From positions 1-64,000 of the forward strand of contig CANXME010000893.1 in assembly GCA_948144175.1 (NCBI GenBank): a DNA stretch of 64,000 bases. Reading direction: 5' to 3'. The position numbers and the translations under genes were made by a program. The stretch comes from Closterium sp. NIES-65 (lineage: Eukaryota > Streptophyta > Zygnematophyceae > Desmidiales > Closteriaceae). Shown piece by piece: positions 271 to 63,640 of the stretch (position 1 is its first letter; each line of letters begins with the position of its first letter). The notes below the pieces were generated by a model. It was given only the letters and a program-made list of their open reading frames with translations. It made no database searches and was not told where the DNA came from.

Positions 271-1018
271 TCCTCACCTGTGTCGATGTACGAAGGGTCC
301 AGGTAATCCAGGGTGCCGACGATGCGAGTCGAAACATGCGACTTGCCCACCCACCCACCATGCCACCAACCAACTCATGTTAATCCCCATTGGGCACCCA
401 TCTCCACCGCACTGAACCGCATTGAACCACTCTGAACCCCTCCGCACCTGTAGCGATGTATGCAGGGTCCAAGTACCCCAAGGTCCCCGTGACACGTGTT
501 GATACGTGCCAATTGCCCAGCCCACCCACAGCCCCACAACACACTCTTGCTGTCCGCATTGGGCACCCATCTCCACCGCACTGAACCCCTCCTCACCTGT
601 GTCGATGTATGAAGAATCCAAGTACCCCAAAGTCCCCGTGATGCATGTTGATACGTGCGACTCGCCCAACCCACCCACAGCCCCACTCATGCTATCCGCA
701 TTGGCCACCCATCTCAACCGCACTAAACCGCACTGCACTGCACCGAACTGCACATAACCGGGCCTCACCTGTGTCAATGTACGAAGGGTCCAAGTACCCC
801 ATTGTCCCCGTGATGCGAGTAGACACATGCGACTTGCCTGCCTTAGGCCCTGCTGTGGCCACTCCCTACCCCACAATCCATGTTCATCCACCTCAATCGC
901 ACTGAACAGCACTAAACCGCACTCAACCAATGTAAACCCCTCTGTACCTGTGTCAATGTACGAAGGGTCCAGGTACCCCATTGTTCCCATGATGCGCGTC
1001 AACACATGCGACTTGCCC
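271..1018 (-). repeat. Tandem partial copies of the kinase activation-segment exon
   Basis: Five copies, at about 279-349, 447-516, 594-668, 766-838 and 946-1018, each encode on the minus strand a variant of [24 protein letters not shown] followed by a GTGAGG-type donor and intron sequence rich in CACTGAACCGCA. The spacing is about 150-180 bp. They lie downstream of the complete DFG/activation exon (1092-1213) in the gene's direction, so they repeat the donor-side end of that exon. The copy at 766 also keeps the end of the DFG half (ATAGPKAGKSH). Confidence -1.
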
Positions 1019-1091
1019 ACCCACTGCCGCACAGCATAACTCGAGTTTGTCCAGTTTGGCACCCATCTCCACCGCACTAAACCGCACCTCA

Positions 1092-2735
1092 CCTGTGTCT
1101 ATATACGCAGGGTCCAAGTACCCCATTGTCCCCATGATGCGCGTAGACACGTGCGACTTTCCCGCCTCGGGCCCTGCAGTTGCCATCCCGAAATCCGTCA
1201 GCTTTGCACGCATGTGCTGCGGAGTGGGGAGAAAGGATGAGAGAAAGGGAAAGATATCAGAATGCGAAGGAGCGTGCGACTTGCCCGCCTCGGGCCGTGC
1301 AGTTGCCATTCCGAAATCCGTCAGCTTCGCATTCATGTGCTGTGGAGGGGTGGGGGGGAGGGGAGGGAAAGGGGAGAGGAAAGGGAGAGGTGTATTCGAC
1401 AACTGATGTCAGGATGAGAGGGCTTTTGAGGCGCCTCAAAAAGGGGGGGAGGGAAAGGGGAGAGGAAAGGGAGAGATGTATGCAACAACTGATGTCAAAA
1501 TCTGTCAGATCTGTCAGATCCGTCAGATCCGTCAGATCCGTCAGATCCGTCAGATCCGTCAGAAAGGAAACGATGGACAACTGAGACGGAAAGATGTCAG
1601 AATGAGAGGGCGGGTGAGAGAGCAGGTTGCGACGGAGGGCAAGAGGGAGGTTGAGGTTGAGCTCATAGCAGGGTGAGCTTACAGCAGGGTGAGCTGAGCT
1701 CCTGCTGTGGCCATTCAAGAAATCATTGGCTGTGTGCCGTTGTTAGTTACCTCATCCTGCTGCCCACAGTACACCAGTGCAGATACACCCTGTACGCGTT
1801 ATTACCACATCCAGCAGAATGTTGCTTGTCTTGAAGTCCCGGCGAATCACGTTCTGCCCGTGCAAATACACCCTATACGCGTTATTACCTCATCCAGTAA
1901 AATGTTGCACGTCTTGAAGTCCCTGTGAATCACGTTCTGCCCGTGCAGGTACTCCAGCCCTCTTGCCACGTCCACAGCTATGCGCACGCGCTGCTGCCAC
2001 GTCAGCACAGGCGTGGCGGGATCAACGGCGCTGGCAGCAGCACCAGACACACCCCTAGCCGCTGCAGCAGCTGTAGCAGCAGCATCCCGTATAGCAGCAT
2101 CATCTATAGCAGCAGCGTTATCTGTAGCAGCCTCACTCATACCCCCCCAACTCCGCTTCCTCTCCTCCTCCTCCCCCTCCTGCTGCTCCTCCTGCTGACG
2201 TGGATACAGCCACGTGTGCAGATTCCCCCTCTCTATAAGCTCATACACCAGCAATGCGGCAGCACCCCCCGGGGCCGATTCAAGTCCACACAGTACCCTA
2301 GCAGCCGCACCAGATTAGGGTGGTGTAAACTCCCAAGCATTATAATCTCTGACATACACTCATCTACGGCCTTGAAACTGCCGCTGTGTAGCACCTTCAC
2401 TGCCACGTCACGCTGACGTGGCATCCCACCTCCACCACCACCACCACCTGAAGCACCACCACCCGCTCTTCCTGCTCTTCCTGCTCTCCCTGCTCTTTCT
2501 TCCTCGTTCCTCTGCGCTTTCCCTCCTCCTCCTCTCTCCTCCCCTGGAACCTTCCTGTCATCTTCCTCGCCGAGCCACTCCTCCACCGAGCCTCGGTACA
2601 CCGTGCCGAAGCTGCCGCGGCCCAGGATCTGGCTCGGGCCGAACCACTGCGTGGCCTGCTGTAGCTCGCGGTAGGTGAACCGGCGGAGTGGTAGCGTGGA
2701 CCAGGTCTCGTCTGTTGTTGTGAATCGGCTGCCTG
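1092..2735 (-). CDS. Receptor-like protein kinase, catalytic domain (3' end off window; one frameshift)
   Basis: Plant RLK/Pelle-type Ser/Thr kinase. Reading leftwards on the minus strand, one large exon (about 2735 down to 1889) carries an [12 protein letters not shown] entry segment, the Gly-rich loop GRGSFGTVY, the VAVK lysine, an Arg/Gly-rich insert, [11 protein letters not shown], and the catalytic loop IHRDFKTCN, ending LLLDE before a GTAATA donor. A second exon (about 1213-1092) has the DFG motif ([10 protein letters not shown]) and activation segment with [19 protein letters not shown]. Later subdomains (APE region onward) lie left of the window. The ectodomain and membrane segment were not found, so it could be a cytoplasmic RLCK. 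The frame breaks at the CCCCCCGGGG run (2263-2272): one more G would join LLGYC to LVYEL. This is either an assembly indel or a real lesion. Both exons are bordered by partial copies of themselves. The family is certain; the subfamily (PERK/RLCK-like) is a guess. Confidence -1.
1272..1720 (-). repeat. Acceptor-side copies of the DFG exon, plus a 9-bp array
   Basis: At 1272-1340 a near-perfect copy of the start of the DFG exon ([18 protein letters not shown]) precedes the complete exon on the minus strand. At about 1685-1720 a more decayed copy is still recognisable from its DNA. Between them, at 1500-1563, a 9-bp unit (ATCCGTCAG) is repeated seven times; it contains the GTCAG seen at the start of the exon copies. 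Confidence -1.
1424..1441. repeat. 18-bp perfect palindrome, GCGC core
   Basis: TTTTGAGGCGCCTCAAAA. It is one member of a dispersed palindrome family (see 3150, 34030, 34871, 34962, 61566) and lies between two kinase exon fragments. Confidence -1.
1800..1863 (-). repeat. Donor-side copy of the kinase catalytic-loop exon end
   Basis: The minus strand reads [18 protein letters not shown] followed by a GTRRTAAC donor-like sequence, a copy of the end of the main kinase exon ([19 protein letters not shown], ending at 1889). The catalytic His is Arg in this copy, so it is unlikely to be the functional version. Confidence -1.
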
Positions 2736-2754
2736 TCACTGGCAGGTGGAAAGG

Positions 2755-15500: not shown

Positions 15501-18500
15501 CCTCCTGCCCCTCTGCCCCTTACTGACCCCCTGCCCTCTGCCCCTTGCCCCTCTGCCCTGCCTGTGTGCTCCCTATGAAACCATAATCCATGCCCCATCT
15601 CCCCCCTCCAGGTGCAGTACAAGGCGAGGCTTCTCCATCTGAGTGACGAAGTTCGCTCTCTAAGAGCATCAGGCTTCCACACCCCGCACCACCTGCTCGC
15701 CTGCGCCTTCTCCGCCTCTGCTGCCGCCTCCTCCGCATCCACCATCTCCCCTCCTGCCCCTCTGCCCCTCCCTGAACCCCTGCCCTCTGCACCTTGCCCC
15801 TCTGCCCTGCCTGTCTGCTCCCTATGCCACATCTCCCCCCACCAGGTGCAGTACAAGACAAGCCTGCTGCATCTGAGCGAGGAGGTCCGCACCCTTCGGG
15901 CATTAGGCTTCCACATCCCGCACCACCTGCTCGCCTGCGCCCTCTCCGCCTCTGCTGCCGCCTCCTCCGCATCCACCATCTCACGAGCGCTCGAGAGCTT
16001 TGCTGATGTCAGCGCTGGCGTCAGCAAGGGCGTGCTGCCGCTGGTGGTGGCTTCGCGAGAAGCGGTGCTGGGGTTAATGCAGAGCGGTGAGTCGGCACGC
16101 GGGTAAGGAAGCAATGGTGGGGGTACTGCACTCTAGTGAGTGGGTGATGCAGTCCGGAAGCAAAAGCGTGCTGCCGCTGGTGGCGACGACAAGGAAAGCG
16201 ATGCTGGGGATAATGCAGAGCGGTGAGACTTGATTGTACAGCAGTAAGGGGGGGTTGGGGATAATGCAGAGCGGTGAGTCATTGCTGCGGAGTGGTAAGG
16301 GTGGATTGGGGATCATGCAGCAAGGGGTGGCTGGGGATAATGCAGAGTGGTAAGTGGTGGTTGGGGATAGTACAAAGCGGCGAGTCATAATTTAAAGGTG
16401 TGGGTAGGGAAGAGGGACGGTGGAAGATATATTTAGTCCCTCTGGTGAGGAAGAAAGAAGAATAGAGAATGGGTTGAGGAGGAAGAGGAGGACGAGCTTG
16501 CAGTGTGCCTGTGGGGTGCTGTCGTGCCGAGGAGGGAACTGGGTGTGTGTTTGAGTCAGCCACCCATCTCAACCACTCCGTTGTCCCCTGACTTCCCCTC
16601 ATGTTCCCCCTTGCTTTCCCCGATTTCACCTCACCATTGGCCACCGTTGCAGGTCAGGGAGTGGTGTGGGAGGAGGAGGGAGCAGGACGAGTTGGCGGTG
16701 TGCCTGTGGGTTGCCGTGGGGTGGGGGGAAGCTTGGCGTATGAGTCTCCCCTTCCACTCCAATGTCTATTGCGGGATAAGAGACGACTTTTGACGTGCCT
16801 CAAATGCCGTGGGGGGAACTTGGCGCATGAGTCTCCCCTTCCACTCCATCGTCTCCTGACTTCCCCTCATGTTACCCTTGGTTCCCCTACTGCCCGCACT
16901 GCAGGCCAGGGCGTTGTGTGGGAGGAGGAGGACGAGTTGCAGTGTGCCTGTGGGATGCAGAGGAGGGAACTTGGTGTTTGAGCCTGTTACCCATCTCAAC
17001 CACTCCTTTGTCCTCTGGCTTCCCTTCATGGTCCCCCTTGCTTCTCCCAATTTCCCCCCCCCTGCAGGTGGAAGTGTGGTGTGGGAGGAGGAGGACGAGG
17101 TGGATGAGTTCGCCGTGTGCCTGTGGGATGCAGTGGAGGCGTTTTCATCTGCAGCTGCTGCGGCCAAGGAGAGGCATGAGGCGGCATGGCAGTGCCTTGA
17201 GCAGATTCGTTCGTGTGCCTATAAGGTGAGTGTGTGTGCCGGTGGTTGGATTGGAGGGTGTTTGCTTGTAAGGCGTGTGCCTGTGGGATGCTGTGGAGGC
17301 GTTTTCAGCCGCTGCTGCTGCCGGCAAGGACAGGCACGAGGCGGCATAGCAGTGCCTTAAGCGTGTCCGATCGTGTGCTGGTGGGAGCTTACAGCAGCTA
17401 AGTCTATAAGGTGAGAGCCTCTAAGCCCGCTCTGCCACTGCTGCTGCTAAGGTCAAGGAGAGGCATGACGCTGCATGGCATTGCCGAAACCATGAGCTTG
17501 CTCTAAAGAGTTTTGTCTAATAGCACAAAGCGTCTAACCTTAATGTTTTCTCCGTCCTCTTTTTTTTCCTCCATCCCCTCTCACCGAATCAGGACCTGCC
17601 AACTCATCTCCGCCAGCTGGCGCACGCGGTAATTGCAGCGATCTCCCGGCCGCCTTACCCGGCTGCCATGTCAGCTGCCACGTCAGCAGTGTGGCAGCAT
17701 GAGGTGGCTGCCACGTGGGCCGCCCCGCTGCTGATGCAAGCACAGGCGGCTCTGCAGCAGAAGCTGACGTCAGCGCTCTGCTGCTGGCTGAAGAAATGGA
17801 AGGACCTGATTGGAGGAGACTCTCCTGCTGCTACAGCTGCTGCTACAGCCGCCACGGGTGCCAAATCTGCTACAGCTTCTGCTGCTGCTGCTGCGGCGGC
17901 AGCGGCTGCTAGGGTTAATGAGGTCTCTAAGGGATCCCCTGAGCGTGTAGGGGGTCTGCAGGTGGTGGTGAGAGAGATTGAGGCTGTGCTTTCACTGCAC
18001 GGGCCCTCTGGTGTAGTGAAGGAACGAGCTGGTGGAGGAGCCGACGCAGCAGGGGCGGCAGGAGCGGCAGGGGCGGCAGGAGTAGTGGGAGGAGATTTGA
18101 ATGGCGGGGATGGGAGCGAGACTGAGTCGTTTGTGCTGCAGCTTCTGCAGGAGCAGATGGGGATGCTGACGCACCGAGTGGCTGTGAGGGGGTCAAACGC
18201 AGGGGCGGTTAGAGTGGAAGGAGGAGGAGCGAGTGGCAGGATGGAGGTGGAGGTACAGCCTCCTCTCTGCGAGTCTCAGCAGCGGCTCCAGGACTGTGTT
18301 CAGCTGTTGCTCGCTCCCGCTCTCTCTGCTGCTGCAGAGGCCAATAGCGTCCTCTCCTCCGCCTCTGCGGCTTTCTTGCTCCCTCCCACTCCCTCGAATG
18401 GTCCCTCTGCTGCTGCTGAAGCCAGCAGCATGCACTCATCCGCCTCTGCTGCCCTGCATCCCATGGCTGCTGGTAACTTCAGTGACGTCAGCAGCAGCGA

Positions 18501-21500
18501 CAGCATGGGTAGCTATCACAGCACTGCAAGGGGCGGGGCTAGTGTGGGCAGTCTGTTAGTAGTGAGCTGTGTGGTTCCGGCTCGGCTGGAGGCGTGTGCG
18601 TATGGGGTGGTGGATGCAGTGGTTGGGGCGGCTGAGGGGTGGGTGGGCGAGTGGAGGGTGAGAGTGGCACAGGCGGAAGGGAAGATGGAGAGATGCGCCC
18701 GTGCTGCTGCTGCTGCTGCTGTAGCTGCTGCTGCTGCTGCTGCTGCCCCAGCTGCTGTTAGCGAAAGTTCCAACACCTCCCTTCCCCCGCCTTCGACTGA
18801 ACTCTGGCGTTCCCTTATGAACGAAATTCAGCAGGTTCGTAACCAGCTGGCTGCCAAACCTGCAGTGGTTAGGTTCGGCACAGCTGACCGAACCTCGCTC
18901 TTAGCCTTGGACGCAGGCTCGGTGAGGGAGGCACTGGTGGGTCGGTGTGAGGCTTGGATTCGGGCGGCTGAGGAGGATATAGAAGGCAGGGCGGTTCGGG
19001 GTTGTAGAGAGGCGATTAAAGAGGTATCTGAGCTGAAGAAACTACTGGAGTTGATTAAGAGGGAGGCAGAGGGGGAACTTATGAGTAGAGATAGGGAACA
19101 GAGGCTCGGGCGAGTGAGAGAGGGAGAGGAGGGTGAGGAGGGGGAGCAGGGAGAGGAGGAACAGGAGGGAGAGAAGGGAGCGGAGAACAAGGCAGCTATG
19201 GGTAATGGTGGTGCGGATAAGGGTGAAGGATTGAGTGGGGATGTGCGGAGGCTGGTAGAGCATCTAGAGAGAGTGAGGGAGGCGGAGAGGAGGGTAGGAG
19301 AGGTGAGTGATGGAGTGGAGAAACTCAGGCCGTTAGTAGAGGCGGCTGTTTCTAAGGGAGGGGGAAGTGGCAAGGGGAAAAGGAGCACTAGCAGCAGCAG
19401 CAGCGGTGGTAGGAGCAGTAGTGCCGGGGTTGGGATGGCGCTGGTACAGGCAAGCTGGAAAGAGCTGGAGAAGGAGTGGGGAGAATTGGAATGGGCAAGA
19501 AAGGCTGTATTGGGAGGGAGAAAGGCAGGAGCAGAAGCAGCACGAAAGGGAGTAGAAGCTGCAGCAGGAGAATCCCCCAGCGGGATAGTTTTCCTCCAGG
19601 GGCTTGTGAGCATGCAGGTGTTGAGTGCGGTGCAGGTGCATGTGGGGGAGGTGGGGAGGCGTATGGAGGAGCTTGAGACGTGGTGGGACGCTGCTGCTCC
19701 TACCAGTGCGGATTGCTCTCGAGGCAGGGCTGCTGGGGCGCTGGTGCAGTGCGCACGCTTAGTGGGGCAGCTTAAAACGAGGATAGAGCTCATGAGGAGG
19801 GCGATTGGGCTGGTGGGAGGGGCGGGCGGGGAGGAGGAGGAGGAGGAGGAGGAGGTGGGGAGAGTGGAGGGGAGGTTAGAGAGGGTGGTTGCAGAGGGGG
19901 AGGAGATGCAGCGTATGTGGCTGTTGATTAATCATCTTTTGGATGTTATTGCCTCTGTGGAGGGGATTAGGGTTGCGGATTTCAACCCTGAATCGGACTT
20001 AACCCCTCTGCACTCCGCCTTGAGCGACGTGAACCAGGAGGAAGAGGTATTCGGGCAGCACGGTGCGTTCCGGGCAGTTCAATCGGCTGCCCGGAAACTA
20101 ATTGCGAGCCTAGGTCTGGTGTCGAAGCTAGTTAAAGCCTCGCTGCAAGAGGCCCATTGGAGAGCCCTCGCCCGAGCATTGGGGTTCCAAGCCAAGGGCG
20201 GGCTCGGCGCCGGAGGTACCCTGCAGGTTCGGGATCTGGTTCGGGCGCTGGGAGGCTTGGAGGGTCGGGCGGCAGCGGAGCAGGTTTTATCTGCCGTCCA
20301 GGGGGAGGTGGCATTGAGACAGTTTATGGATAAGGTTGAAAAGGAGTGGGGCGAGCAGGAGTGGGCTTTTAAGGGGTTTAGAGACAAGTGGAAAATCGTG
20401 GGGAATTTGGGGGTGGTTGGGGAAATGGTGCTAGAGCATTTGAGTATGCTTGGAGCGATGAAGCAGTCTCCCTTCTTCCCTCCGTTTAGAGAGGCTGTGA
20501 GGGAGTGGGAGGGGCGACTGGGGCAGCTGAGTGAGCTGGTGGATGCGCTAGCAGACGCGCAGTCCAAGTGGGTCCGTTTGGAAGCACTCATGACGTCACC
20601 TGCCGTCCGGTCGATGCTACCCGACACGCACCGCGCCTTCCACGAAGCTTCCCTCCCGTTCACGGAGTTCCTGGGATCGCTCGCCGCCCGCCCTCTCGCG
20701 ATCGACCTGGAGGGACTTGCGGACGAGGACGACGGAGCCGGGCGGCAGGTTTTGGCGGTTTGTGCGGAGGTGTTTGGGCGGGTGCTTTTGGAGGTTCAGG
20801 CACATCTGGACAAGCAGAGGCGGATGCTGCCAAGGCTGTACTTCCTGGGGGATGACGATCTGTTACAGCTCATCTCTGCTTCGCCCTCTGATTTATCTGC
20901 GGTATGTTTCTGTGTGGGCACGAAAATATGTGTACGTGTATGTCAAGTGAGTGTGCGAGTTGCCGCATCTGGACAAGCAGAGGCGGATGCTGCCAAGGCT
21001 CTACTTTCTCAGGGATGACGATCTGCTGCAGCTCATTTCTGCGTCCCCCACAGACCTCTCTGCTGTGAGTTGAATATTGGGTTTCATGTGTATGACGAGG
21101 GCTACCAAAGCTGTACTTCCTGGGGGATGACGATCTGCTGCAGCTCATCTCCGCCTCGCCCTCAGACCTGTCTGCGGTACGCATTGGTTCACTTGCATGC
21201 ATGTCTCTCTGGGTCAGTTATGTGCATGTCTAGGCGGATGCTGCCAAGGCTCTACTTTCTCAGGGATGACGATCTGCTGCAGCTCATCTCTGCATCGCCT
21301 TTGGACCTCTCTGTGGTAAGTATATGTGTCTGTGTATGTGTGCACGGATGCTGCCGAGGCTGTACTTCCTGGGAGACGATGATCTGCTGCAGCTCATCTC
21401 CGCCTCGCCTTCGGATCTATCTGCTGTAAGTCTGAGTATGAATGAAGTGTCACTTCTGAGTCGACTCAAAAGACAAGCAGAGGCGGATGCTGCCGAGGCT

Positions 21501-21738
21501 GTACTTCCTGGGCGATGACGACCTGCTGCAGCTCATATCCGCATCACCATCAGACCTCTCTGCTGTACGTTTATGTGCATGTGTCTGTGTATGTGTATGT
21601 GTATGTGCGTATGATATGGTTTATGAGTGTGCGGATGCTGCCAAGGCTGTACTTCCTTGGAGACAACCATCTGCTGCAGCTCATGTCTGCCGACCTCTCT
21701 GCGGTAAGTAGATGTGTCTTTGTCTGTGTCTGTGCATA

Positions 21739-21811
<73 letters not shown>

Positions 21812-21941
21812 GTGTGATATGGTTTATGTGTGTGCGGATGCTGCCAAGGCTGTACTTCCTTGGAGACAACCATCTGCTGCAGCTCATGTCTGCCAACCTC
21901 TCTGCGGTAAGTAGATGTGTCTGTGTCTGTGTCTGTGCATA

Positions 21942-22005
<64 letters not shown>

Positions 22006-25000
22006 TGTGTATGTGTATGTGTGTGTGATATGGTTTATGTGTGTGCGGATGCTGCCAAGGATGTACTTTCTCAGGAACGACCATCTGCTGCAGGCAGCTC
22101 ATCTCTGCATTGCCCTCAGACCTCTCTGCTGTAAGTTTGAGTTTGGGGTTTCACTTTTGAGTCAGCTTAAAAGACAAGCAGAGGAGGATGCTGCCGAGGC
22201 TGTACTTTCTGCGGGATGATGACCTGCTCCAGCTCATATCCGCATCATTTTTGGGGCGCCTCAAAAGTCTGGGGGATGATGTGATGACCTGCTCCAGCTC
22301 ATATCCGCATCACCTTCGGATCTCTCTGCTGTACGTATATGTGTCTCTGTATGTGTATGTGTGTGTGATATGGTTTATGTATGTGCGTATGCTGCCGAGG
22401 CTGCACTTTTGGGGGGATGACGATCTGCTGCTGCAGCTCATGTCTGCATTGTCGTCAGGCCTCGCTGCTGTATGTTTCTGCGTGCCGGTTCGTTCATGTG
22501 TATGTGTGTGTGTGTGATTTGGTGTACGTGTAAGTGTATGCCCGAATGGATGTCGTTTCTGGGAATGACAATCCACTCCCTTTTTCCCCGCTCTCTCTCC
22601 CTGTCCCCTGTTCTCCTGCTTCAGGTGCACGTGCACATTCGCAAGCTCTCCACTGCAGTCTCATGGTCCCCTCCCATCCTCCCTCCATTCCCCTTTTCCC
22701 CCTCTCTCCCCCTCTCCCCTCTCCCCCTTTCTCCCCTCTTCACTCTTTTCCCATGTCAGGTACACGTGCACATTCGCAAGCTCTTCACAGCAGTCTCAGG
22801 CATTGAAGTATCGGCAGTCTCTGATACCATTTTGCCAGAAAAGAGTACAGCAGAGGATGTAGTGAAGTTTGCACCTTCAGGGGACGCAGGGAAGAGAGTA
22901 TTTATCACCGCAGCTCTTTCCGACGGGGAGCGGCTCGTGCTGCACCAACCAGTGGAGCTTGCGGAAGGTGCTGCCACGTCAGCGAGTGCCACGTCAGCGG
23001 ATGCCACGTCAGCGGGTGCCACGTCAGCGGAAGGACAGAAGCCAGCAGGAGCCACCAAGTGGCTGCTGGATCTCGACATGGCGCTGCGGACGACTCTGAG
23101 CGACCTGGTTGTGTCAGCGGTCGCTGAGCTGGCGGCGTGTGATTGGCTGTCGACTGCTGCGGCTGGGAAGAGGGAGAAGAGCAAATGCAGCGGGAAGGAG
23201 GGAAGTGGCGGCGGAGTGAGGAGGAGTGGAGTGAGGATGGGCGGTAGCAGCAGGAGGAATGGAGGAAGGTTCCTCGAGTGGCTGGGGAAGCTGCCTTTGC
23301 AGCCGGCGCTGCTAGCTCTTCAAGTGAGCTGGACTGCTCTGGTTGAAGGGATTTTGGCAGGCGAGGAACGGGAGGTAGATGAGCAAGGGGTGCAAGTGAG
23401 GGGTGGAAAGGAAGCAGGGCTGGAGGCTCTGGTGGTGGGGCTGGAGGGGCTTCTGCAGTGGCTGGCACGTGCCGTGAGGGAGCGGAGAGAGCTGGCTAGG
23501 AAAGCAGCGGGGGCAGGAGGAGGAGGAGCAGGCAGAGCAGCAGGGGGAGCAGGGGGAGTAGGAGAGGGGGCAGGTGGCGAGGAGGGGAGGTTGATGGAGG
23601 CCAAGTGTGAGGCGGTGATTACTGTGTTGGTTCACCTGCTGGAGAGCAGTAAGGCGCTGCTGCTGGAGCAGCAGGAGGAGCAGGCACGGGCAGAGAAGGA
23701 GGAGGAGGAGGATAAGGAGAATATGGAGTGTGCAGGGCTTCAGCAGAAGCAGAAGCAGAAGCGGAAGGAGAGGAAGCAACACGGGCTCTCCCTCTCCTCC
23801 TTTGCCTGGCGAAAATGCCTCCGATACTACCTCGACCCTTCCCTCCCTCCCCTCCACCGCCTCTCTGTTCAAATCGCAGACGCCTCTTTCACCTACGGGT
23901 TTGAATACTCTGGCTGTACTCCCTCCCTCGTCCGCACCTCCCTCACTGACCGCTGCTTCCTCGCACTTTCCCAGGCGCTCTGGCACGGCCAGGGCAGCGC
24001 TCTGATTGGTCCAGCTGGCACGGGGAAGACGGAGACGGTCAAGGCGCTCGGGCGGCAGCTCGGGCGGCCGGTTTTGGCGTTATCTTGCGATAGGAGCTTT
24101 GACAGTGCGGCGGTGGGGCGGGTTTTGGAGGGAGTGGCGAGGCTGGGCGCGTGGGGGTGCATGGACGAGTTCAACCGGTTGGACGAGAGTACAATGTCTG
24201 CGATCTCGCAGCACCTGGTGGCGATTCAGGGCGCGCTGAGGGAGGGACGGAGAGAGGCCGTGCTGGCTGGGACTGCCGTGCCCGTGCACCCTGCCACTGG
24301 TGAGTGGGCGTGGGTGGGTGTGTGTGTGTGCACCCTACTACTGGTGAGTGGGCGTCGGGGGATGGGGGAAACAGGGTGGGGGTGCATGGACGAGTTCAAC
24401 AGGTTGGACGAGAGTACAATGTCTGCGATTTCGCAACATTTGGTGGCGATTCAGGGCGCGCTGAGGGAAGGAAGGAGGGAAGCCGTGCTGGCTGGGACTA
24501 CTGTGCCCGTGCACCCTGCCACTGGTGAGTGGGCGTGGGTGGGTATGTGTGTGTGCACCCTGCCACTGGTGAGTGGGTGTGGGTGGGTGTGTGTGTGTGC
24601 ACCCTGCCACTGGTGAGTGGGTGTGGGGGGATGGGGGGAACAGGGTCGGGGTGCATGGATGAGTGGAACAGGTTGGACGAGTGTACAATGTCGGCTATCT
24701 CACAACATCTGGTGGCGATTCAGTGCGCGCTGAGGGAGGGACTGCCGTGCCCGTGCACCGTGCTACTGGTGGGTGGGCGTGGGTGGGTGGGTGTATGTGT
24801 GTGTGTGTGCACCCTGCTACTGGTGAGTGGGTGTGGGGTGTTGTTCCTTGGTTGTTGTTGCTCTATGATGCCATGTGTGTGCTGTGATGTGTGCTGTGAT
24901 GTGTGCTGTGATGTGTGCTGTGATGTGTGCTGTGATGTGTGCTGTGATGTGTGCTGTGATGTGTGCTGTGATGTGTGCTGTGATGTGTGCTGTGATGTGT

Positions 25001-31846: not shown

Positions 31847-31887
<41 letters not shown>

Positions 31888-41895: not shown

Positions 41896-44800
41896 GGCAG
41901 CACAAACGCCAGTGGGAGTCTCTCTGTCTTCCCGGGCACTTGAATCCCCGATCCCCACGCCAGCCCCTCTCCCTCCTGTAATGGACGACTCTACAGTCTC
42001 AAAAACTCTCGCTCAGATTAAAAAGACGCAGCAGCAGTCAAGGCGAAGGCCAGAGAGGTGCGGCTGGTAATGAGACAAGTTGACGCCGTCCGGACGCTGT
42101 ACGCCCCGCTGGCGGACGTCGGCGCGGCGGCGTTTTTCGTCCTTTCTGGGGCGGCTGCCGCCCTGCAGCAGCCGCTGTACAGATTCTCGCTGGATTTCTT
42201 TCTGCGGGCGTTTGACGACGCGATTTTGGCTGCTAGTGGTGAATCAGGTGGGAAATCAGCAGCAGAAGTAACAGTAACAGCAACAGTAGCAGCAACAGCA
42301 GAAGCACAGTCAGAAGGTGCTGTAGCTGTGAAGCCGAGAGTGAGGCAGCTGGTGGCAGCAGTATTGAGTGAGCTTATAACGAGGACAGCAGAGGCAACAG
42401 AGTACCGGCACCACCTGCCTGTGGCCCTTGCCCTATCCCGCTGCGCCAGGCTGGCAGATGACGTGGACTGGGTTGGCTTGGCTACAACTGTCGCTGCAAA
42501 GTTTGCTACAGGGTCTGCTTGTGCGATAGGCACTGCTACAGCCCCTGCTACAGCTGAGAGTACAGGCAGAGCAGCAGGTGATATTTCAGCCGCAGTGAAA
42601 GAGGAGCTGCAGCGTACGACTGCTGGGGCAGCTTATAGCGAGTATGAGGTCAGGGGGTGTGCTGCAGTGGAGGCAGTGGTGGGGTTCGTGGAGTCAATGG
42701 CAGTCAACGCTGGTCAAACGGACATTGCTGGGCGGAGACTGGTGGAGGCTGTGATCAGTCATGGGGGTAGCTGTGCTGCTGGCACTGCTGCTGCCACTGC
42801 TGCTGCCAGGGCTGCTGGCGGTGCTGCTGGTGGTGCTGCTGGCGGCGCTGCTGGCGGTGGTTCTGATGCTGTTAGCAGACCAAGAGCAGCAGGGGGGAGG
42901 GTCGGAATGGCACTAGAGCATCCCATGGAGCATCCTGCTGCTGCGGCTCGGTTCATGCAGGCTCGGGCCGAGCCTGCCCGCCCGACCCTGGTGGCCTGCG
43001 TCGGCAGCTGCGACCCAACCGCCATGCTCACCGCTGCTGCTGCTACAGCTGCTACAGCCACTGCTGCCACTGCTACAGCCGCAGGTGCTGACAAAATTGC
43101 TGTTGCTGCCTCTGCTGCTACAGCCGCTGCAGGTCCTAGGGTTGTAGCGGTGGCAATGGGTTCAGACGATGCAGTGGCAGAAGCACAGAGGGCAGTGGAA
43201 GGAGGGGTGAGAGCTGTAGCAGCAGGCCCTAGGGTTGTAGCAGTGGCAATGGGTTCAGACGATGCAGTGGCAGAAGCACAGAGGGCAGTGGAAGGAGGGG
43301 TGAGAGCTGTAGCAGCAGGCCCTAGGGTTGTAGCAGCAGGCCCTAGGGTTGTAGCGGTGGCAATGGGTTCAGACGATGCAGTGGCAGAAGCACAGAGGGC
43401 GGTGGAGACAGGGGCGAGGGAGGGGCGGTGGGTGGTGCTGTGCAATGCCCACCTGGCCCTATCGGTGCCCAGGCACGCTGCGTGGCTTCAGCTGCTGCTC
43501 AACTCGTTACAGTCACGTGCAAGATCGACGGTGGACGGAGGCCGATCGACGGTGGACGGAGGCCGATCAACGGTGGACGGAGGCCGATCGACGGTGGAGG
43601 CGGCTCGATCCGTGCCAGTGCATCAGGACCAGCAGCAGCAGAAGCAAGTGCCAGTGCATCGGGATTTCCGGCTGGTGCTGACAGTGGAAGCGGCGGGGGC
43701 GGCTGTGCGGCTGATGCCTCCCAAGCTGGTGGAGGCGTGTGACGTGCTGGTGATGGAGGCACCGGCAGGGGTGAAGGGCAGCATGCAGGTGAGATATGCC
43801 CTCTTCGTCCCTTACTCCCTTCCTCACTTTCTGCTCTCCTCTTGCGGCTGATGCCCCCTAAGCTGGTGGAGGCGTGTGACGTGCTGGTGATGGAAGCACC
43901 TGCAGGGGTCAAGGGCAGCATGCAGGTGAGCCGCTTCTCCTGCTCCTTCTCCTTCCTCCCTTACTTCTCTCCTCTCCCTTTGAATGCCTCACACCACCCC
44001 CAAGCTGGTGGAGGCGTGCGACGTGCTGGTGATGGAGGCACCGGCTGGAGTGAAGGGCAGCATGCAGGTGAGCCTCTCTCGTGTTGCTGTCCCCTTTCTC
44101 CTTCCACTGGTTTGAGTTGCCTCACATCGCTCCCAAGCTGGTGGAGGCGTGCGACGTGCTGGTGATGGAGGCACCGGCTGGAGTGAAGGGCAGCATGCAG
44201 GTGAGCCTCTCTCGTGTTGCTGTCCCCTTTCTCCTTCCACTGGTTTGAGTTGCCTCACATCGCTCCCAAGCTGGTGGAGGCGTGCGACGTGCTGGTGATG
44301 GAGGCACCGGCTGGAGTGAAGGGCAGCATGCAGGTGAGCCTCTCTCGTGTTGCTGTCCCCTTTCTCCTTCCACTGGTTTGAGTTGCCTCACATCGCTCCC
44401 AAGCTGGTGGAGGCGTGCGACGTGCTGGTGATGGAGGCACCGGCTGGAGTGAAGGGCAGCATGCAGGTGAGCCTCTCTCGTGTTGCTGTCCCCTTTCTCC
44501 TCCCACTGGTTTGAGTTGCCTCACATCGCTCCCAAGCTGGTGGAGGCGTGTGACGTGCTGGTCATGGAAGCACCGGCAGGGGTGAAAGACAGCATGCAGG
44601 TGAGATAAGCTTCCTCTTCCTCCTCCTTGTTGTCGCTGAGCTGTGAGTCGACTCTCATGCCCACTCCTCTTCCTCCTCCTTGTTGTCGCTGAGCTGTGAG
44701 TCGACTCTCATGCCCACTCCTCTTCCTCCTCCTTGTTGTCGCTGAGCTGTGAGTCGACTCTCATGCCCACTCCTCTTCCTCCTCCTTGTTGTCGCTGAGC

Positions 44801-57039: not shown

Positions 57040-57850
57040 CAGATAAAAACAGGTGCAAAAACCTGGTACAAAAAAATAAATGCAACGAGAACAACTCCGC
57101 AATCACCAGCCCTCTCAAACCAAACTCACTGTACTTCATCCCCTTCTCCCTTGGTGATTCATTATGTGATCTTGGCAGCACAGCACCAGCATGAACATCT
57201 AAAAGACTGCATATTCCTCTACATCTCATGCAGAACATAAAAATAATCAGAAACCTAGGCATGCTAACAGAAACATGTGCTGCTAATAAATACGTGAAAC
57301 AACCTTCTCATTCAGTTCTAACGGCATCACCAGAACCAACCGCTTTCCTGAACACATACGATTGCTCAAAGTACCCATGCCTGCAACATCACAATAAACG
57401 AGCAGGAAAGAAAAGGAAGGAAAAATAAGTGTATAAAACATCGTGCATCCCCTTAGTTTCGAAGTCGTTTTGCCTGAGATAGTGAATCGTGCATCCCCTC
57501 AGCTCACCGGTAACAGTCTGTCACTCACCCATTTGTGCCGGCGAGTAGGCAACTCACCCGCTCTTCTCTGCAAACGCGATATTCCATCCACGAATCACCC
57601 ACTCTTGCCAGCAAACACGGGAGCGTAGCTGTACCGAAGCATGTCGTTCATCCCCTCTCTCTCAACTCGCGGGTGATAGCATGCCACTTAACCCTTCGCG
57701 CTGGCAAGACAAGTCCGTGATTCTCACCGCAGACAGCTCACCCATTCTTGCTGGCAAATACGGGAGCCTGGTTGTAGAGAACCATGTCGTTCATGCCCTC
57801 CCTCATTTCACAGGTAACAGCACGCAACCCACCAACTCTTGCCAACAAAG
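57040..57850 (-). repeat. Downstream copies of the gamma-glutamyl hydrolase last exon end
   Basis: On the minus strand, GMNDMVLYNQAPVFASKNG-stop (about 57750-57810) and GMNDMLRYSYAPVFAGKSG-stop (about 57600-57655) repeat the 3' end of the last coding exon, each with its own stop codon. A shorter fragment lies near 57540. From 57040 to 57500 nothing else was recognised. Confidence -1.
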
Positions 57851-57858
57851 TAAGCAGC

Positions 57859-60800
57859 TCACCCATTCTTGCCGGCAAACACGGGAGAGTGGTTGTACAG
57901 AAGCATGTCGTTCATGCTCTCATCCGAGGCTGGAGAGTGGGTGTTGCGCCGAGCCTCACTGCCATGGGGAGGAATGGGGAAGAGTGGGGAGGTGTGGGGA
58001 GGAGTGGGGAGGAGGGAGTAACAGGAGATCCGTTGTACAGAAGCAAGTCGTTCATGCTCTCGTCCGAGGCTGGATGGTGGGAGTTGCGACGCGCCTCACT
58101 GCCATAGGGAGGTACGTGGAGGAATGGGGAGGAATGGGGAGGAGTGGGTGAGGAGTGGGGAGGAGTGGGTGAGGAATGGGGAGGAGTGGGTGAGGAGTGG
58201 GGAGGAGTGGGTGAGGAGTGGGGAGGGTGAGGAGTGGGGAGGAGTGGGTGAGGAGTGGGTGAGGAGTGGGGAGGGAGTGGGTGAGGAGTGGGGAGGAGTG
58301 GGGAGGAGTGGGGGGAACAGGAGATTTGTTGTAGAGAATGTCGTTCATTGCTCTCATTCGAGGCAGGATGGTGGGTGTTGCGACGCGCCTCACTGCCATG
58401 GGGAGGATTGGGGAGGAGTGGGGAGAAATGGGAGGAACAGGAGAGCATTTTCAGAGAAGCAAGTCGTTCATGCTCTCGTCCGAGGCTGGATGGTGGGAGT
58501 TGCGACGCGCCTCACTGCCATAGGGAGGTACGTGGAGGAATGGGGAGGAATGGGGAGGAGTGGGTGAGGAGTGGGGAGGAGTGGGTGAGGAATGGGGAGG
58601 AGTGGGTGAGGAGTGGGGAGGAGTGGGTGAGGAGTGGGGAGGAGTGGGTGAGGAGTGGGGAGGGTGAGGAGTGGGGAGGAGTGGGTGAGGAGTGGGTGAG
58701 GAGTGGGAGGAGTGGGTGAGGAGTGGGGAGGAGTGGGGGAGGAGTGGGGGGGAACAGGAGATTTGTTGTAGAGAATGTCGTTCATGCTCTCATTCGAGGC
58801 AGGATGGTGGGTGTTGCGACGCGCCTCACTGCCATGGGGAGGATTGGGGAGGGAGTGGGGGAGAAATGGGAGGAACAGGAGAGCATTTTCAGAGAAGCAA
58901 GTCGTTCATGCTCTCGTCCGAGGCTGGAGAGTGGGTGTTGCGCCGAGCCTCACTGCATAGGGAGGTACTTGGAGGAATGGGGAGGAATGGGAGGAGTGGG
59001 GAGTGGGGAGGAGTGGGTGAGGAATGGGGAGGAGTGGGTGAGGAGTGGGGAGGAAGTGGGTGCGAGTGGGAGGAGTGGGTGAGGAGTGGGGAGGGGTAGA
59101 GGAGTGGGGAGGAGTGGGTGAGGAGTGGGTGAGGAGTGGGGAGGAGTGGTGAGGAGATGGGGAGGAGTGGGGAGGAGTGGGGGGGAACAGGAGATTTGTT
59201 GTAGAGAATGTCGTTCATGCTCTCATTCGAGGCAGGATGGTGGGTGTTGCGACGCGCCTCACTGCCATGGGGAGGATTGGGGAGGAGTGGGGAGAAATGG
59301 GAGGAACAGGAGAGCATTTTCAGAGAAGCAAGTCGTTCATGCTCTCGTCCGAGGCTGGATGGTGGGAGTTGCGACGCGCCTCACTGCCATAGGGAGGTAC
59401 GTGGAGGAATGGGGAGGAATGGGGAGGAGTGGGTGAGGAGTGGGGAGGAGTGGGTGAGGAATGGGGAGGAGTGGGTGAGGAGTGGGGAGGAGTGGGTGAG
59501 GAGTGGGGAGGAGTGGGTGAGGAGTGGGGAGGGTGAGGAGTGGGGAGGAGTGGGTGAGGAGTGGGTGAGGAGTGGGGAGGAGTGGGTGAGGAGTGGGGAG
59601 GAGTGGGGAGGAGTGGGGGGGAACAGGAGATTTGTTGTAGAGAATGTCGTTCATGCTCTCATTCGAGGCAGGATGGTGGGTGTTGCGACGCGCCTCACTG
59701 CCATGGGGAGGATTGGGGAGGAGTGGGGAGAAATGGGAGGAACAGGAGAGCATTTTCAGAGAAGCAAGTCGTTCATGCTCTCGTCCGAGGCTGGAGAGTG
59801 GGTGTTGCGCCGAGCCTCACTGCCATAGGGAGGTACGTGGAGGAATGGGGAGGAATGGGGAGGAGTGGGTGAGGAGTGGGGAGGAGTGGGTGAGGAATGG
59901 GGAGGAGTGGGTGAGGAGTGGGGAGGAGTGGGTGAGGAGTGGGGAGGAGTGGGTGAGGAGTGGGGAGGGTGAGGAGTGGGGAGGAGTGGGTGAGGAGTGG
60001 GTGAGGAGTGGGGAGGAGTGGGTGAGGAGTGGGGAGGAGTGGGGAGGAGTGGGGGGGAACAGGAGATTTGTTGTAGAGAATGTCGTTCATGCTCTCATTC
60101 GAGGCAGGATGGTGGGTGTTGCGACGCGCCTCACTGCCATGGGGAGGATTGGGGAGGAGTGGGGAGAAATGGGAGGAACAGGAGAGCATTTTCAGAGAAG
60201 CAAGTCGTTCATGCTCTCGTCCGAGGCTGGAGAGTGGGTGTTGCGCCGAGCCTCACTGCCATGAGGGGAAAGGGGAGGGAAAATAAGGAGGAAGGGGCGG
60301 GGATGTGAGAGGGTGGAGATGTGAGAGGGCGGAGATGTGAGGCAGAGTGGACGGGGAATGGAAGCAAGTTGAACGTGAGTGTGACTGTAGCGCGTGTGAC
60401 TGTAGCACGTGTGACTGTAGCGCATGAGTCCGTAGCTTGTGTGACTGTACCACGTGTGACTGTAGTGCGTGCAACTGTAGTGCGTGTGACTGTAGTGCGT
60501 GAGTGCAGTGCGTGTGACTGTAGTGCGTGAGTGCAGTGCGTGTGACTGTAGCGCTATTGAGACCACTTTCAACATACTTGACAAAGAAGTTGGCTACTGC
60601 CTGTCCCACGGCTATGGCGTGTGGTGTGTGGCAGAGTGATTAGTGCTAGTGACTGTAGCACTTGTGACTGTAGCACTTGTGACTGTAGTGCATCTGACTG
60701 TACAGCTAAAGAGACCAACTCACTTGACAAAGAAGTTGGCTGCTGCCTGACCCACAGCTATGGCATGTGCTCCGTGGGGTATGTGGTCCAACCCCCACTC

Positions 60801-63210
60801 GTATGCATTCTTCTGTTGTGTGTGAAGGAATGAGAGGGGAGGGGAGGGGAGGGAAGGAGGAATGAGAATAGAAAAAAGGGTTTAGGGTTAGCACCGCCAT
60901 GGTGTGTCAGTCCTGACAAGCACACCCACTGCCACGGTGTGAGTCCCGACAAGCACACCCACCGCCATGGTGTGTGAGTCCTGACAAGCACACCCACCGC
61001 CATGGTGTGTGAGTCCTGACAAGCACACCCACTGCCACGGTGTGTGAGTCCCGACATGCACACCCACCGCCATGGTGTGTGAGTCCTGACAAGCACACCC
61101 ACTGCCACGGTGTGTGCTGCATGGGGCATGTGGTCCAACCAACCCCCTCTCGTACGTGTTCTTCTGTTGTGTGAAGAGGGTTGGGTGAAGAGGTGAGAGG
61201 GGAACAGAGGATAGGGGAGGGAGGAATGAGAAGCACAGCAATGGCGTCTGCTGCATGGGGTATGTGGTCCAACCCAACCCCCACTCATATGCATTTTTCT
61301 GTTGATTTGTGCGTCGTGTGAAGCAATGAGAGGGGAAAAGGCACAAGAGAAAGAGGAGTTTGAGAAATACTGCAGGGGTATGTGATCCAGCCCCCACTCA
61401 TAGGCGTTCTTCTGTTGAATGAGAGGGAGCAGAGGGGAGAGCGGAATGAGACCAGCATGAGGGACCTGACCCACAGCATTGGCGCCTGCTGCAGGGGGTA
61501 TGTGATCCAGCCCCCACTCGTGCGCGTTTTTTCTGTTGAAAAGAAAGATACCATGCAAGAGAGTGTTTTGAGACGTCTCAAGATACCATTCGAGCGAGTG
61601 TTTTGAGACGTCTCAAGATACCATTCGAGCGAGGGAGGAATGAGCGAGAGGAGAGAGTTTTGAGATCTTGACGTATGGTATGCTGCGTAGGGTATGTGGT
61701 CCAAACCTGACTTGACGTTCTTTCTGCTGCTACCAGCCACGTCAGCATGTCACAAACCACGTCAGCGTGACAGAACCCACGTCAGCATGCGACAACCCAC
61801 CTCTGGATGCCACTGCGTGCCATAAAAGGGATACCGCTTTCCCTGCACTGTTGTCACATACTCCTACAGTCACAGATGGGCACACGGAGAGAACAGGAAC
61901 ATAAGTACAGAAATTAATTTCCCTGCACTGTACCGATTTGAACTGCTGTAAAGACATGATACATACACTTCTCAACAGTGAGACGCAGATGGAATCATTC
62001 GAACCACATTGTGTTCAAAATCATCGCAATCATAAGTTCTCTGATACAGTAATTTAAAATATAGCATTTCAGTAATGAACGAGAGACAAAAACAACATTC
62101 CATGCTGTACCAGTCCATTCTTATCGAACGAGGTGGTGAGAACAAAGAAGAAATCCCTCAGCTTGCTGTTGGAGAGAAAGCGATGCACCGTGGTGCCGTC
62201 CTGAGAGGGGGGAGGGGGGTGCATTGGAGGATGAGGTGAAATGGGGAGGGGAGGAGGGAGAAAGGGTGCAAAGATCGAGGTGGTGAACAGAGCACGGAGA
62301 ATATATCTCTGAGCCTGGCGTTGGAGAGGAAGCGATGCACCGTGGGGCCGTCCTGAGAGGGGGGAGGAGGAGGGAGGGAAAAGAGCAGGTTGAGGGGTCA
62401 TGGGAAGGGGAGAGGCGTGTTGTGCACAAAGTAGAAATCCCTGAGCTGGCTGTTGGAGAGGAAGCAATGCACCGAGGGGCCGTCCTGAGAGGGGAGGAGG
62501 ATGGAGGTGCGGAGAAGGGGGGGGGGGGAGGAGAAGGAGGTGGTGAGGACACAGGTACACATCGCGAGCATTGGCAAAGGAGAAGAAATTCTGGAGCTTA
62601 CCTGAACAATGGAATGCTTCTCCACAGAGAAGGGTAGCTTCTGCACCTTTCATGACATAGAGCGAGAGGTGCGAAGAGAGGGGGGGAGGAAAGTCGGAAA
62701 ACCGGAAGTTACCTGATGGTTCTCCATGGTGAGAGGGAGCTCTTGCACCTTTGCAGCCAAATCCGGAGACATCCTGAGAGCGAGAAGGGGGAAAGGGCGC
62801 GGATGGAGGGGGGCGCGGCGGGAGGGGGGAAGGGTGGAGGCACAGTGAAACGAGAGGGAACGAGGGGGGACGAGAGGAGAGGGAGCTCTTGCACCTTCCC
62901 AGCCAAATCAGGAGACAGAGTGAGGGGCGCAAGAGAGAGGGGGGAAGAGAGGGGGGAAGAGAGAGAGAGAGAGAGGGAAGAGAGGGGGCATGGTGAGACG
63001 AAGGGGGGAAATTCCATCTTACTAGTTATAAGCAGACTCAACGGGAGAAGCAGCTCCTGCAGCGCACTTAGTAACGAGTTCAGACCGTACTCGCTATAAG
63101 CGGCCTCACCAGGAGAAGTAGCTTCTGCGGTGCACCCAGTTGCCCACGAATTTGAGCGGAGAGGCCAAATCCAACGCACTGAAGCGCCTCAGTTCCAGCA
63201 GGTTCGGGTC
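57859..63210 (-). CDS. GGH: Gamma-glutamyl hydrolase (folylpolyglutamate hydrolase), C-terminal half; 5' end off window
   Basis: Peptidase C26 enzyme, normally vacuolar or secreted, that trims poly-gamma-glutamate tails from folates. Six exons, 63210-63110, 62773-62713, 62200-62111, 61863-61801, 60812-60724 and 57958-57859, join with consistent phases (2, 0, 0, 0, 2). They read DPNLLELRRFSALDLASPLKF, MSPDLAAKVQELPLTMENHQ, FLSNSKLRDFFFVLTTSFDK, EYVTTVQGKRYPFYGTQWHPE (with the catalytic His of QWHPE), KNAYEWGLDHIPHGAHA...ANFFV, then NEARRN...LLYNHSPVFAGKNG-stop. This is the order and spacing of the family's C-terminal half. The nucleophile Cys and signal peptide must lie right of the window. 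The protein ends somewhat short of animal relatives. Most of its exon edges are echoed in the adjoining introns. Confidence -1.
58000..60270 (-). repeat. 436-bp higher-order array built from copies of the last GGH exon start
   Basis: About five units of about 436 bp (period exact between 59186, 59622 and 60058). Each unit holds two acceptor-side fragments of the last GGH exon on the minus strand: one reads EARRN(T/S)H(S/H)PASDESMND then breaks, the other NESMNDILYNKSPVP. They are joined by GTGAGGAGTGGGGAGGAGTG sub-repeats. All units precede the complete exon (57859-57958) in the direction of transcription. Confidence -1.
60360..60700 (-). repeat. GTGACTGTAGCGC repeats and a donor-side copy of the fifth GGH exon
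   Basis: A 10-13-bp GTGTGACTGTAG unit recurs about 15 times. At about 60550-60605 the minus strand reads GQAVANFFVKYVES, a copy of the end of the 60812-60724 exon (GQAAANFFV) with the CAA|GTATG donor-like site. Confidence -1.
60890..61740 (-). repeat. Acceptor-side copies of the GGH KNAYEWGLDHIP exon, with a 36-bp array
   Basis: Minus-strand copies start at about 61735 (KNVKSGLDHIPYAA), 61538 (KNAHEWGLDHIPPAAGANAVGQ), 61412 (KNAYEWGLDHIP), 61300 (KNAYEWGLG) and 61170 (KNTYERGL); all precede the complete exon at 60812. A 36-bp unit (CACACCCACCGCCATGGTGT...) repeats six times at 60900-61115. Confidence -1.
61566..61618. repeat. Two ACGT-core palindromes in tandem
   Basis: TTTTGAGACGTCTCAAGA at 61566-61583 and 61601-61618, inside a duplicated 35-bp block in a GGH intron. 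A third, decayed version (TTTTGAGATCTTGACG) is near 61659. Same family as 34975-34992 in the dynein gene. Confidence -1.
62205..62700 (-). repeat. Echo copies around the VHRFLSNSKL exon of GGH
   Basis: Acceptor-side copies of DG(P/T)(T/S)VH(R/C)FLSN(S/A)(K/R/Q)LRD lie at about 62355-62280 and 62487-62425, before the complete exon (62200-62111). A donor-side copy of the preceding exon end (KVQKLPFSVEKHSIVQ + GTAAG) lies at about 62650-62601. Confidence -1.
62870..63100 (-). repeat. Echo copies around the first two GGH exons of the window
   Basis: An acceptor-side copy LSPDLAGKVQELPL (about 62920-62876) precedes the MSPDLAAKVQELPL exon. A donor-side copy of the preceding exon's end (TGCAGGAGCTGCTTCTCC against CGCAGAAGCTACTTCTCC) lies near 63060-63040. 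Confidence -1.
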
Positions 63211-63219
63211 CTGAAAGTC

Positions 63220-63640
63220 AACGGGAGTTAACAAGTCAAAGAGAGTCAACAAGAGTCAACGAGTCAAAAAGAGTTAACAAGAGTCAACTAGAAAATGTGG
63301 AGGTGAATCAAAGCCGCTGAAGCGCCTCAGTTCGAGCAGGTCCGGTTCCTGAGAATCAACGGGGGTCAACGGGAGTCAACTAGAGAAGGTGGAGGCATAT
63401 TGGGATATGAATTTCAATGCAAGGCACTTAACCGCCTCAGCTCCAGCAGGTCCAGGTCCTGAGAGTCGACGAGAGTCATCGAGAGTCAACAAGAGTCAAC
63501 AAGAGTCAACAAGAGAAGCAACAAATAGAAGATGCACAGGCTTGGGATCTCAATTTACATCCAAGGCGCTGAACCGCCTCAGCTCCAGCAGGTCCGGGTC
63601 CTGAGAGTCAATGTGGGTCAGCAAGGGTGCGTGAGGGTCA
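63220..63640 (-). repeat. Acceptor-side copies of the LLELRRFSALD exon and GAGTCAAC repeats
   Basis: Copies of (D/E)P(D/N)LLELRRFS(A/G) lie at about 63602-63550, 63460-63418 and 63352-63305, all preceding the complete exon (63210-63110) on the minus strand. GAGTCAACAA repeats separate them. Confidence -1.

Follow-up and report, generated by a model that had tools for sequence, protein, structure and literature searches.

Exon-edge copies at a dynein locus of Closterium

We analyzed a 64,000-nucleotide stretch of DNA (hereafter, the window) from the desmid Closterium sp. NIES-65. The window is part of contig C892 (66,335 bp) in an 874-Mb assembly of 2,400 contigs, and its main gene encodes a cytoplasmic dynein heavy chain. 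On the minus strand, it also carries part of a protein kinase gene and a gene that the first-pass annotation, made from the sequence alone, called GGH; a protein search with the latter returned two proteins, neither of which was named GGH. That annotation had claimed that nearly all longer introns of these three genes contain partial copies of the exon ends they border, with copies of an exon's 3' end plus donor site always following the complete exon and copies of its 5' end plus acceptor site always preceding it. Here we describe these copies (hereafter, echoes), their order, and a further property that the annotation had missed, namely that they differ from the exons mainly at silent sites. 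The positions of the exons and echoes are listed in Table 1. A family search found four dynein loci in all, the others lying close to the ends of contigs C811, C2061 and C1632, and the four differ by 0.04 to 0.32% substitutions in aligned bases.

To place the exon ends anew, we aligned Closterium proteins to the DNA with splicing allowed, which recovered the previously called junctions at 20901, 24299, 25779, 36163, 40418 and 43788. We then compared 60-mers spanning the splice junctions with the 3 kb on either side. At 22 dynein junctions, donor-containing copies occurred 21 times downstream and never upstream, and acceptor-containing copies eight times upstream and never downstream; 14 of the 22 junctions had a spanning copy, and none was inverted. 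The seven minus-strand junctions of the kinase and the gene called GGH, where 60725 was used as the end of a small exon although the GT actually follows 60723, gave eight donor copies after and none before the exon, together with 16 acceptor copies before and none after, and all seven had a copy. In other words, all 53 junction-spanning copies at 29 junctions in three genes were direct, lay within 3 kb, joined exon to intron sequence across the junction and stood on the side that had been claimed, with at least one such copy at 21 junctions. No match reached the threshold when junction 60-mers were compared with distant 6-kb stretches of the window (0/81 comparisons). With a looser 150-nt query that did not require the splice site, 60 of 68 dynein alignment rows fell on the expected side; the remaining eight come from two small exons, 25779-25963 and 37477-37673, in which such a query extends to the opposite end.

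The copy numbers reported earlier were checked against the listed copies, whether junction-spanning or not, and most agreed. There are five copies after the kinase activation segment, three main copies (plus three shorter matches) after the Walker B exon end at 24299, four before 25779 and two after 25963 (one spanning), five after the CC1 exon end at 36163, three before the CC2 exon at 40418 (one spanning), and six after the AAA6 exon end at 43788 (one spanning), while the "several" copies before the last GGH exon numbered 11 before 57958. The "about 10" copies of the linker exon end became 8 to 11 depending on the threshold, only one of them spanning the junction. Four copies rather than five precede 60812 at the fifth GGH exon, and the three copies before and two after a microtubule-binding exon had no one-to-one match with the curated exons.

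We also determined how common local direct copies are in general. With low-complexity sequence skipped, they were found for 278 of 412 60-mers in dynein intron interiors and 30 of 512 in exon interiors. The corresponding numbers were 84/267 toward the 5' end of the dynein region, where annotation is lacking (9300-16900), and 37/186 for the long frame between 48.3 and 53.4 kb; three stretches that lie outside the curated gene gave 0/143, 2/176 and 0/68. Local duplications take up 83% of the bases of 11 dynein introns, and 59% align with exon bases, either directly or via other copies. Just inside the exon ends the proportion was 19/22, by a looser criterion, so that copying is roughly as frequent at exon ends as within intron interiors, and the idea that splice sites are targeted is not supported. 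Retro-copying of spliced mRNA was also rejected: of 11 60-mers built from joined exons, eight found no match that crossed the join, and the other three matched next to a genomic exon end or next to a known echo, with only a short overhang.

Table 1. Exons and exon-edge copies in the window
Feature	Position	Strand	Remarks
Copies of activation-segment exon 3' end plus donor	265..987	-	five copies
Kinase activation-segment exon	1093..1216	-	complete copy; gene cut by contig start
Acceptor-side copy before activation-segment exon	1300..1350	-	
Copy of kinase catalytic-loop exon end	1786..1840	-	donor at 1889
Unit of fresh tandem duplication across donor-like site	16060..16098	+	39 bp
Dynein heavy chain exon, tail to linker	17593..20901	+	
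Linker exon-end copies with donors	20966..22472	+	array
Dynein exon, ends in AAA1 Walker B	22760..24299	+	
Walker B exon-end copies	24377..25093	+	
Acceptor-side copies before exon 25779-25963	25205..25679	+	four copies
Dynein exon	25779..25963	+	"sensor I" in the first-pass annotation
Donor-side copies of exon 25779-25963	26016..26305	+	two copies
Acceptor-side copies before exon 26901-27849	26490..26843	+	three copies
Donor-side copies of exon 26901-27849	27980..28221	+	two copies
Acceptor-side copies before exon 28715-29142	28265..28641	+	three copies
Donor-side copies of exon 29898-33592	33642..33954	+	two copies
Dynein exon, ends in stalk CC1	35144..36163	+	
Donor-side CC1 copies	36234..36920	+	five copies; C2061 and C1632 lack one 115-bp unit
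Acceptor-side copies before exon 37477-37673	36949..37420	+	
Dynein exon between the two stalk halves	38727..38886	+	2 extra bases compared with C2061
Acceptor-side copies before CC2 exon at 40418	39874..40336	+	three copies
Donor-side AAA6 exon-end copies	43843..44619	+	six copies, period ~133 bp; in C1632 the array is longer by 1153 bp
Donor copy after exon 57863-57958	57734-57781	-	
Next exon of gene called GGH	57863..57958	-	
Acceptor-side copies before exon 57863-57958	58059..60274	-	eleven copies, period ~436 bp; 870 bp shorter in C1632
Donor copy after exon 60723-60812	60570-60618	-	
Small exon of gene called GGH	60723..60812	-	GT after 60723 in the sequence
Acceptor copies before exon 60723-60812	61122-61538	-	

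Duplication caught between near-identical contigs

Next, we compared the four dynein contigs. A 39-bp unit at 16060-16098 is single in the window and in C811 and double in the other two, so that the duplication is absent from the same site in a close relative. It is exact in C2061, where the alignment was seen, and C1632 shows the same length difference at the same place. The duplication straddles a donor-like site (GCG followed by GTGAGT) and, by eye, has no homology at its ends in C2061; an older echo lies downstream, at 16159-16227. Judging from the frame, the donor sequence and this older echo, the site appears to be an exon end, and a structure search with the frame at this site gave no dynein match. 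The number of units also differs between contigs in the CC1 and AAA6 arrays and in the array before 57958. No insertion or deletion of at least 10 bp was seen inside the 12 curated dynein exons where the contigs are comparable. Duplications were tolerated in the dynein protein at one place, as in-frame tandem repeats with units of 93 bp and 21 bp occur inside a coding exon at 43129-43336 and 43523-43610.

A possible new intron at 38839-38964 has a poor acceptor, and the corresponding exon is intact in C2061. The other examined echoes lie in existing introns, and none of those examined was shown to have made a new intron, although no search for others was made. The two extra bases in exon 38727-38886 break the frame and happen to create a GTGAGG donor that is absent from C2061; a read error and a broken gene copy are indistinguishable as their source.

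Differences between the contigs are unevenly distributed. Up to 17 kb, positions substituted between the window and the other contigs account for 0.7-0.8% of aligned bases; further on, the share is 0.13% for curated dynein exons and 0.25% for dynein introns, a contrast that hints at a mosaic. At position 33426, in a curated dynein exon, one substitution would turn GGA into the stop codon TGA in another contig.

Silent bias between exons and echoes

The echoes differ from the exons mainly at third codon positions and synonymous sites. In 24 chosen ungapped donor-type pairs, we counted 183 synonymous differences at 454 sites and 45 nonsynonymous differences at 1349 sites, giving a nonsynonymous-to-synonymous ratio (pN/pS) of 0.08, with 48, 14 and 166 differences at the first, second and third codon positions; when the frame was shifted, the ratio became 1.41 and 3.51. 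For 18 acceptor-type pairs, chosen in the same way, it was 0.17. The unselected figures were 0.20 (dN/dS) for the 68 dynein rows, in which a few copies are counted twice, and 0.28 for a full set of 128 rows, which includes low-complexity GGH rows. A frameshifting gap occurred in 21 of the 68 dynein rows and in none of the remaining 47. The bias also holds between echoes (306 synonymous to 132 nonsynonymous differences, after pairs with pN of at least 0.25 had been dropped). When changes in seven chosen arrays were assigned to branches by parsimony, the synonymous to nonsynonymous counts were 20:1 on exon branches, 29:5 on internal branches and 54:26 on echo branches (exon versus echo, p 0.011). 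Since the compared pairs share exons, such p-values overstate their independence. Solved by hand under simple assumptions, these counts would place about 85% of the echo-branch change in a functional phase.

This bias is not explained by the simple duplication of sequence that was dead from the start. Along its own half of the path, a dead copy is bound to gather nonsynonymous changes, and the ratio should therefore come to at least about 0.5. If gene conversion between an exon and its echo acted alone, it would also be unable to push the ratio below about 0.5, and we reject it as a sole cause; both expectations were argued rather than simulated.

We also scanned for codon phase without the use of annotation. 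The signal was strong in the curated part of the dynein gene (z 16.3), lower in two dynein parts that had not been curated beforehand (2.4 and 2.9) and 4.8 in the 3' part of the kinase, while three regions with one, one and six blocks gave -0.3, 0.7 and 1.0. No codon-phase signal emerged from three further loci of 10 kb each (L022-L024). However, of the 10 frames scanned there, four, in L022 and L024, were of retrotransposon or transposase type and six had no match; therefore, these loci do not test generality.

Within one repeat of the Walker B array, the intron part carries five differences in 77 bases and the exon part 10 at 36 synonymous sites (p 0.005), as if exon sequence had been exchanged after the duplication. 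In three recent repeat pairs picked from 13, the exon parts likewise differed more (12/189) than the intron parts (0/180); among all 13, however, the other part differed more (48/774 vs 26/842), in part owing to misplaced unit borders. Therefore, we do not lean on this contrast. Two observations concern other strains. The single residue by which the Walker B echo at 24377-24524 differs from the NIES-65 exon is the residue of NIES-54 (predicted protein P0002). In the predicted Yama58-4 protein P0003, the CC1 exon end occurs twice (residues 641-706 and 707-772), and both copies have that strain's own residues, so that this echo matches the exon of its own strain.

PRP8, an independently chosen gene

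One further gene, PRP8, was picked by family search with echoes disregarded and has paralogs on contigs C718 and C2110. Above threshold, donor-side echoes follow exon 1 once in C718 and twice in C2110, and an acceptor-side echo precedes exon 3 in C2110; all are on the predicted sides.

The two paralogs also pass sharply from near-identity to silent divergence, a pattern that we saw in this one pair. In the part of exon 1 in hand, the first 951 bases are identical, and the 886 codons contain 20 silent and no nonsilent differences. Six of the silent differences fall in consecutive codons within the last 33 bases, a run that was never obtained in 200,000 random placements; put differently, there are six in the last 11 codons and 14 in the other 875. 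The C718 intron echo, which carries nonsilent changes, matches the exon end of C2110 (score 81) better than its own (54). Because the codon walk overran the end of exon 2 by about two codons and a stop in exon 3, the counts for these exons are approximate. In exon 2, 26 of 135 codons differ silently along the whole length (19/107 inside and 7/28 at the ends), with no nonsynonymous difference, and exon 3 is patchy (2/14 at its start versus 42/672). When the three exons were pooled, the 14 codons beside each junction showed 15 silent differences in 56, compared with 75 in 1651 for the rest (p 6e-8), an excess mostly due to exon 1. The paralogs thus look like mosaics of near-identical and silently diverged stretches, with one boundary inside an echoed exon end.

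Possible origin of the echoes

We consider it somewhat probable that the echoes arose by local duplication combined with recombination between diverged, functional versions of the gene, and that they are relics of former exon ends. Direct duplications within the locus, tens to hundreds of bases long, do occur at splice junctions; according to this scenario, they would survive only where one intact exon keeps its own donor and acceptor. After a duplication across the donor, the exon would keep the first donor, leaving the second downstream in the intron; after one across the acceptor, the last copy would stay joined to the exon, with the spare acceptor upstream. Using the other copy or doubling the whole exon would alter the protein, and hence donor copies follow the exon and acceptor copies precede it. 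Thus, the copies and their order, as first described, stand, whereas a new element class with a positional rule of its own is not needed: local duplication and selection are enough, and splicing geometry makes a special positional law unnecessary. Tandem duplication across an exon-intron boundary, which the first-pass annotation had set aside as a different mechanism, fits copies that are direct and local.

In addition, recombination may have brought in diverged functional versions, derived from hybridisation or from older duplicate genes. A live exon end and its echo would then often come from different gene versions, and the differences between them would have gathered mostly while both were functional and would hence be silent, the echo decaying only later. 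A likely entry point, although this is conjecture, is the repair of breaks in or near unstable introns, where homology would be confined to the conserved exon ends. A hybrid strain with recombination borders, NIES-4550, is described in the same species complex in the available part of the Closterium genome paper (PMC10407611).

Several results weigh against this scenario. The genome contains no diverged dynein gene, as the family search returned only four near-identical loci, and the genome paper, in the part available, names NIES-4550 rather than NIES-65 as a hybrid (PMC10407611). The GGH region lacks a codon-phase signal (z -1.6), and no copies were found at the ends of PRP8 exon 2 in either C718 or C2110. 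Many dynein echoes look about equally distant from one another, which would call for several source lineages, and in some units the intron parts are less diverged than the adjoining silent sites, so that imported tracts would have to end near the splice site. In addition, substitutions between contigs in 2,481 echo bases, from pieces listed by hand, were one synonymous to three nonsynonymous. Real exons gave 8:9 in 13,007 bases, so that the 1:3 ratio is no proof that echoes are unconstrained today. The absence of a silent bias between contigs in real exons as well slightly lowered our confidence in the scenario and, to a similar extent, raised that in echoes being used.

Plain tandem duplication followed by neutral decay, in which each echo copies its own exon end and is dead from birth, explains the order, the orientation, the changes in unit number and the fresh 39-bp case. 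It is, however, rather unlikely as the whole explanation; the ratios of 0.20 in the 68 dynein rows and 0.08 in the chosen pairs lie far from the expected value of about 0.5, and pairs of echoes are also biased (306:132). For the older copies the silent bias refutes it, unless silent sites at live exon ends change far faster than elsewhere. Such fast change, caused by mutagenic repair at introns or by selection on the ends to diverge from the echoes, would make the echoes frozen snapshots of live ends. The end of PRP8 exon 1 and the pooled junction-adjacent codons of this gene point in that direction, and raised diversity at exon borders is known for mobile mitochondrial introns (PMC5378118). 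On the other hand, the inside of PRP8 exon 2 is nearly as divergent as its ends and the start of exon 3 does not stand out, a pattern that speaks for mosaic patches; most of the pooled excess is contributed by exon 1, where the six neighbouring silent changes have the look of a single imported block. We regard fast-changing live ends as distinctly unlikely.

We also considered whether the echoes serve as spare exon ends that enter translated mRNAs by splicing and are maintained because selection acts on the encoded peptide. The silent bias would follow directly, the 47 dynein rows without a frameshifting gap agree with it, and the predicted Closterium proteins P0001 and P0003 include some copies; these, however, are models and not RNA. 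Of 29 donor copies, 28 have an intact splice dinucleotide, the exception being due to a junction placed two bases off, as do all 24 acceptor copies, but the alignments spanned the junction and so favored this outcome. An unbiased comparison covered eight donor copies, all intact, and no acceptor copies, and we do not accept the conservation of GT and AG as proof of use. Moreover, arrays of alternative exons need an acceptor and a donor per copy, whereas the listed copies carry one exon edge, with no convincing partner splice site by eye and without systematic splice-site scoring. The spacing of successive donors is often not a multiple of three, 21 of the 68 dynein rows are frameshifted, and the PRP8 echo in C718 has nonsilent changes. 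The 1:3 count between contigs differs from the 183:45 between exons and echoes (p 0.029), yet real exons gave 8:9. Taken together, use of the echoes seems unlikely. It is quite unlikely that each intron offers several interchangeable exon ends that spell the same peptide in alternative codons, every one of them serving a fraction of the mRNAs, under genome-wide selection for splice redundancy.

An assembly or read artefact is very improbable. Repeats are hard to assemble, and the window's contig is 66 kb and ends inside a gene. However, the same arrays recur in the other contigs as far as these extend, the reads have an N50 of 30 kb (available part of PMC10407611), sequencing error does not produce silent codon changes, and PRP8, a fourth gene, shows the pattern elsewhere, so that this worry is largely answered. 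The same source reports long-read assemblies and pervasive copy-number variation (PMC10407611).

Comparison with known systems

No shared element sequence appeared in the copy listings, and no genome-wide search was made. Introner elements create introns, and their copies, all of a single sequence, are scattered through the genome. The echoes resemble them in being repeats tied to introns; unlike introners, each array resembles its own adjoining exon end. A dispersed family of the introner type was not seen within the window, given the 81 distant comparisons without a match, and was not searched for genome-wide.

Internal gene duplication across exon-intron boundaries was reportedly treated by Gao and Lynch in 2009. 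Internal or tandem genomic duplication across such a boundary is also described for the potato RdRp gene (PMC4974935) and in a review (PMC3443670). The echoes share with the potato case direct local copies, spare splice sites and a protein that is kept intact. That case, however, is a single event that produced a new intron, whereas here most introns of a gene are affected and may hold as many as about ten copies, none is shown to be a new intron, and the divergence between copy and exon is silent-biased (PMC4974935). Tandem duplications formed by break repair are short, exact and head-to-tail, like the 39-bp case, but many units here exceed 100 bp and belong to old arrays (PMC8355091). The borders of mobile mitochondrial introns show an excess of silent change next to the intron with the protein conserved, attributed to mutagenic repair or co-conversion, as at the end of PRP8 exon 1; those introns are self-splicing and encode endonucleases, whereas the introns here are nuclear GT-AG introns and a diverged patch can span a whole exon (PMC5378118). 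Pervasive exon-end copies with silent-biased divergence were not described in the literature that we searched, which covered few subscription papers and some sources in part, and exon copies are not mentioned in the examined parts of the Closterium genome paper (PMC10407611).

If dynein and PRP8 are typical, the introns of this alga grow largely from their own exon ends and record older gene versions, as snapshots of past alleles. They would then allow a gene-by-gene test of recombination between diverged gene versions and a natural test of how the spliceosome chooses among many near-identical donors. Specialists would not expect the intron copies of a live exon to diverge from it mainly at silent sites, and other strains allow a direct test. 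Gene prediction also requires care, as the Closterium models P0001 and P0003 already include such copies as exons.

Other features of the window

Transposase pieces at 54663-56332 (plus strand) comprise a Tc5-type DNA-binding domain and a DDE_1 endonuclease, and almost no local duplications occur there. An open frame at 48142-53460 (plus strand) has 1773 codons, is rich in Ala, Glu and Gly, and has no Pfam match. Sequence like this frame is fused to dynein in the predicted Yama58-4 protein P0003, which is probably a prediction error. A tRNA gene (Rfam RF00005) lies at 47244-47316 on the minus strand.

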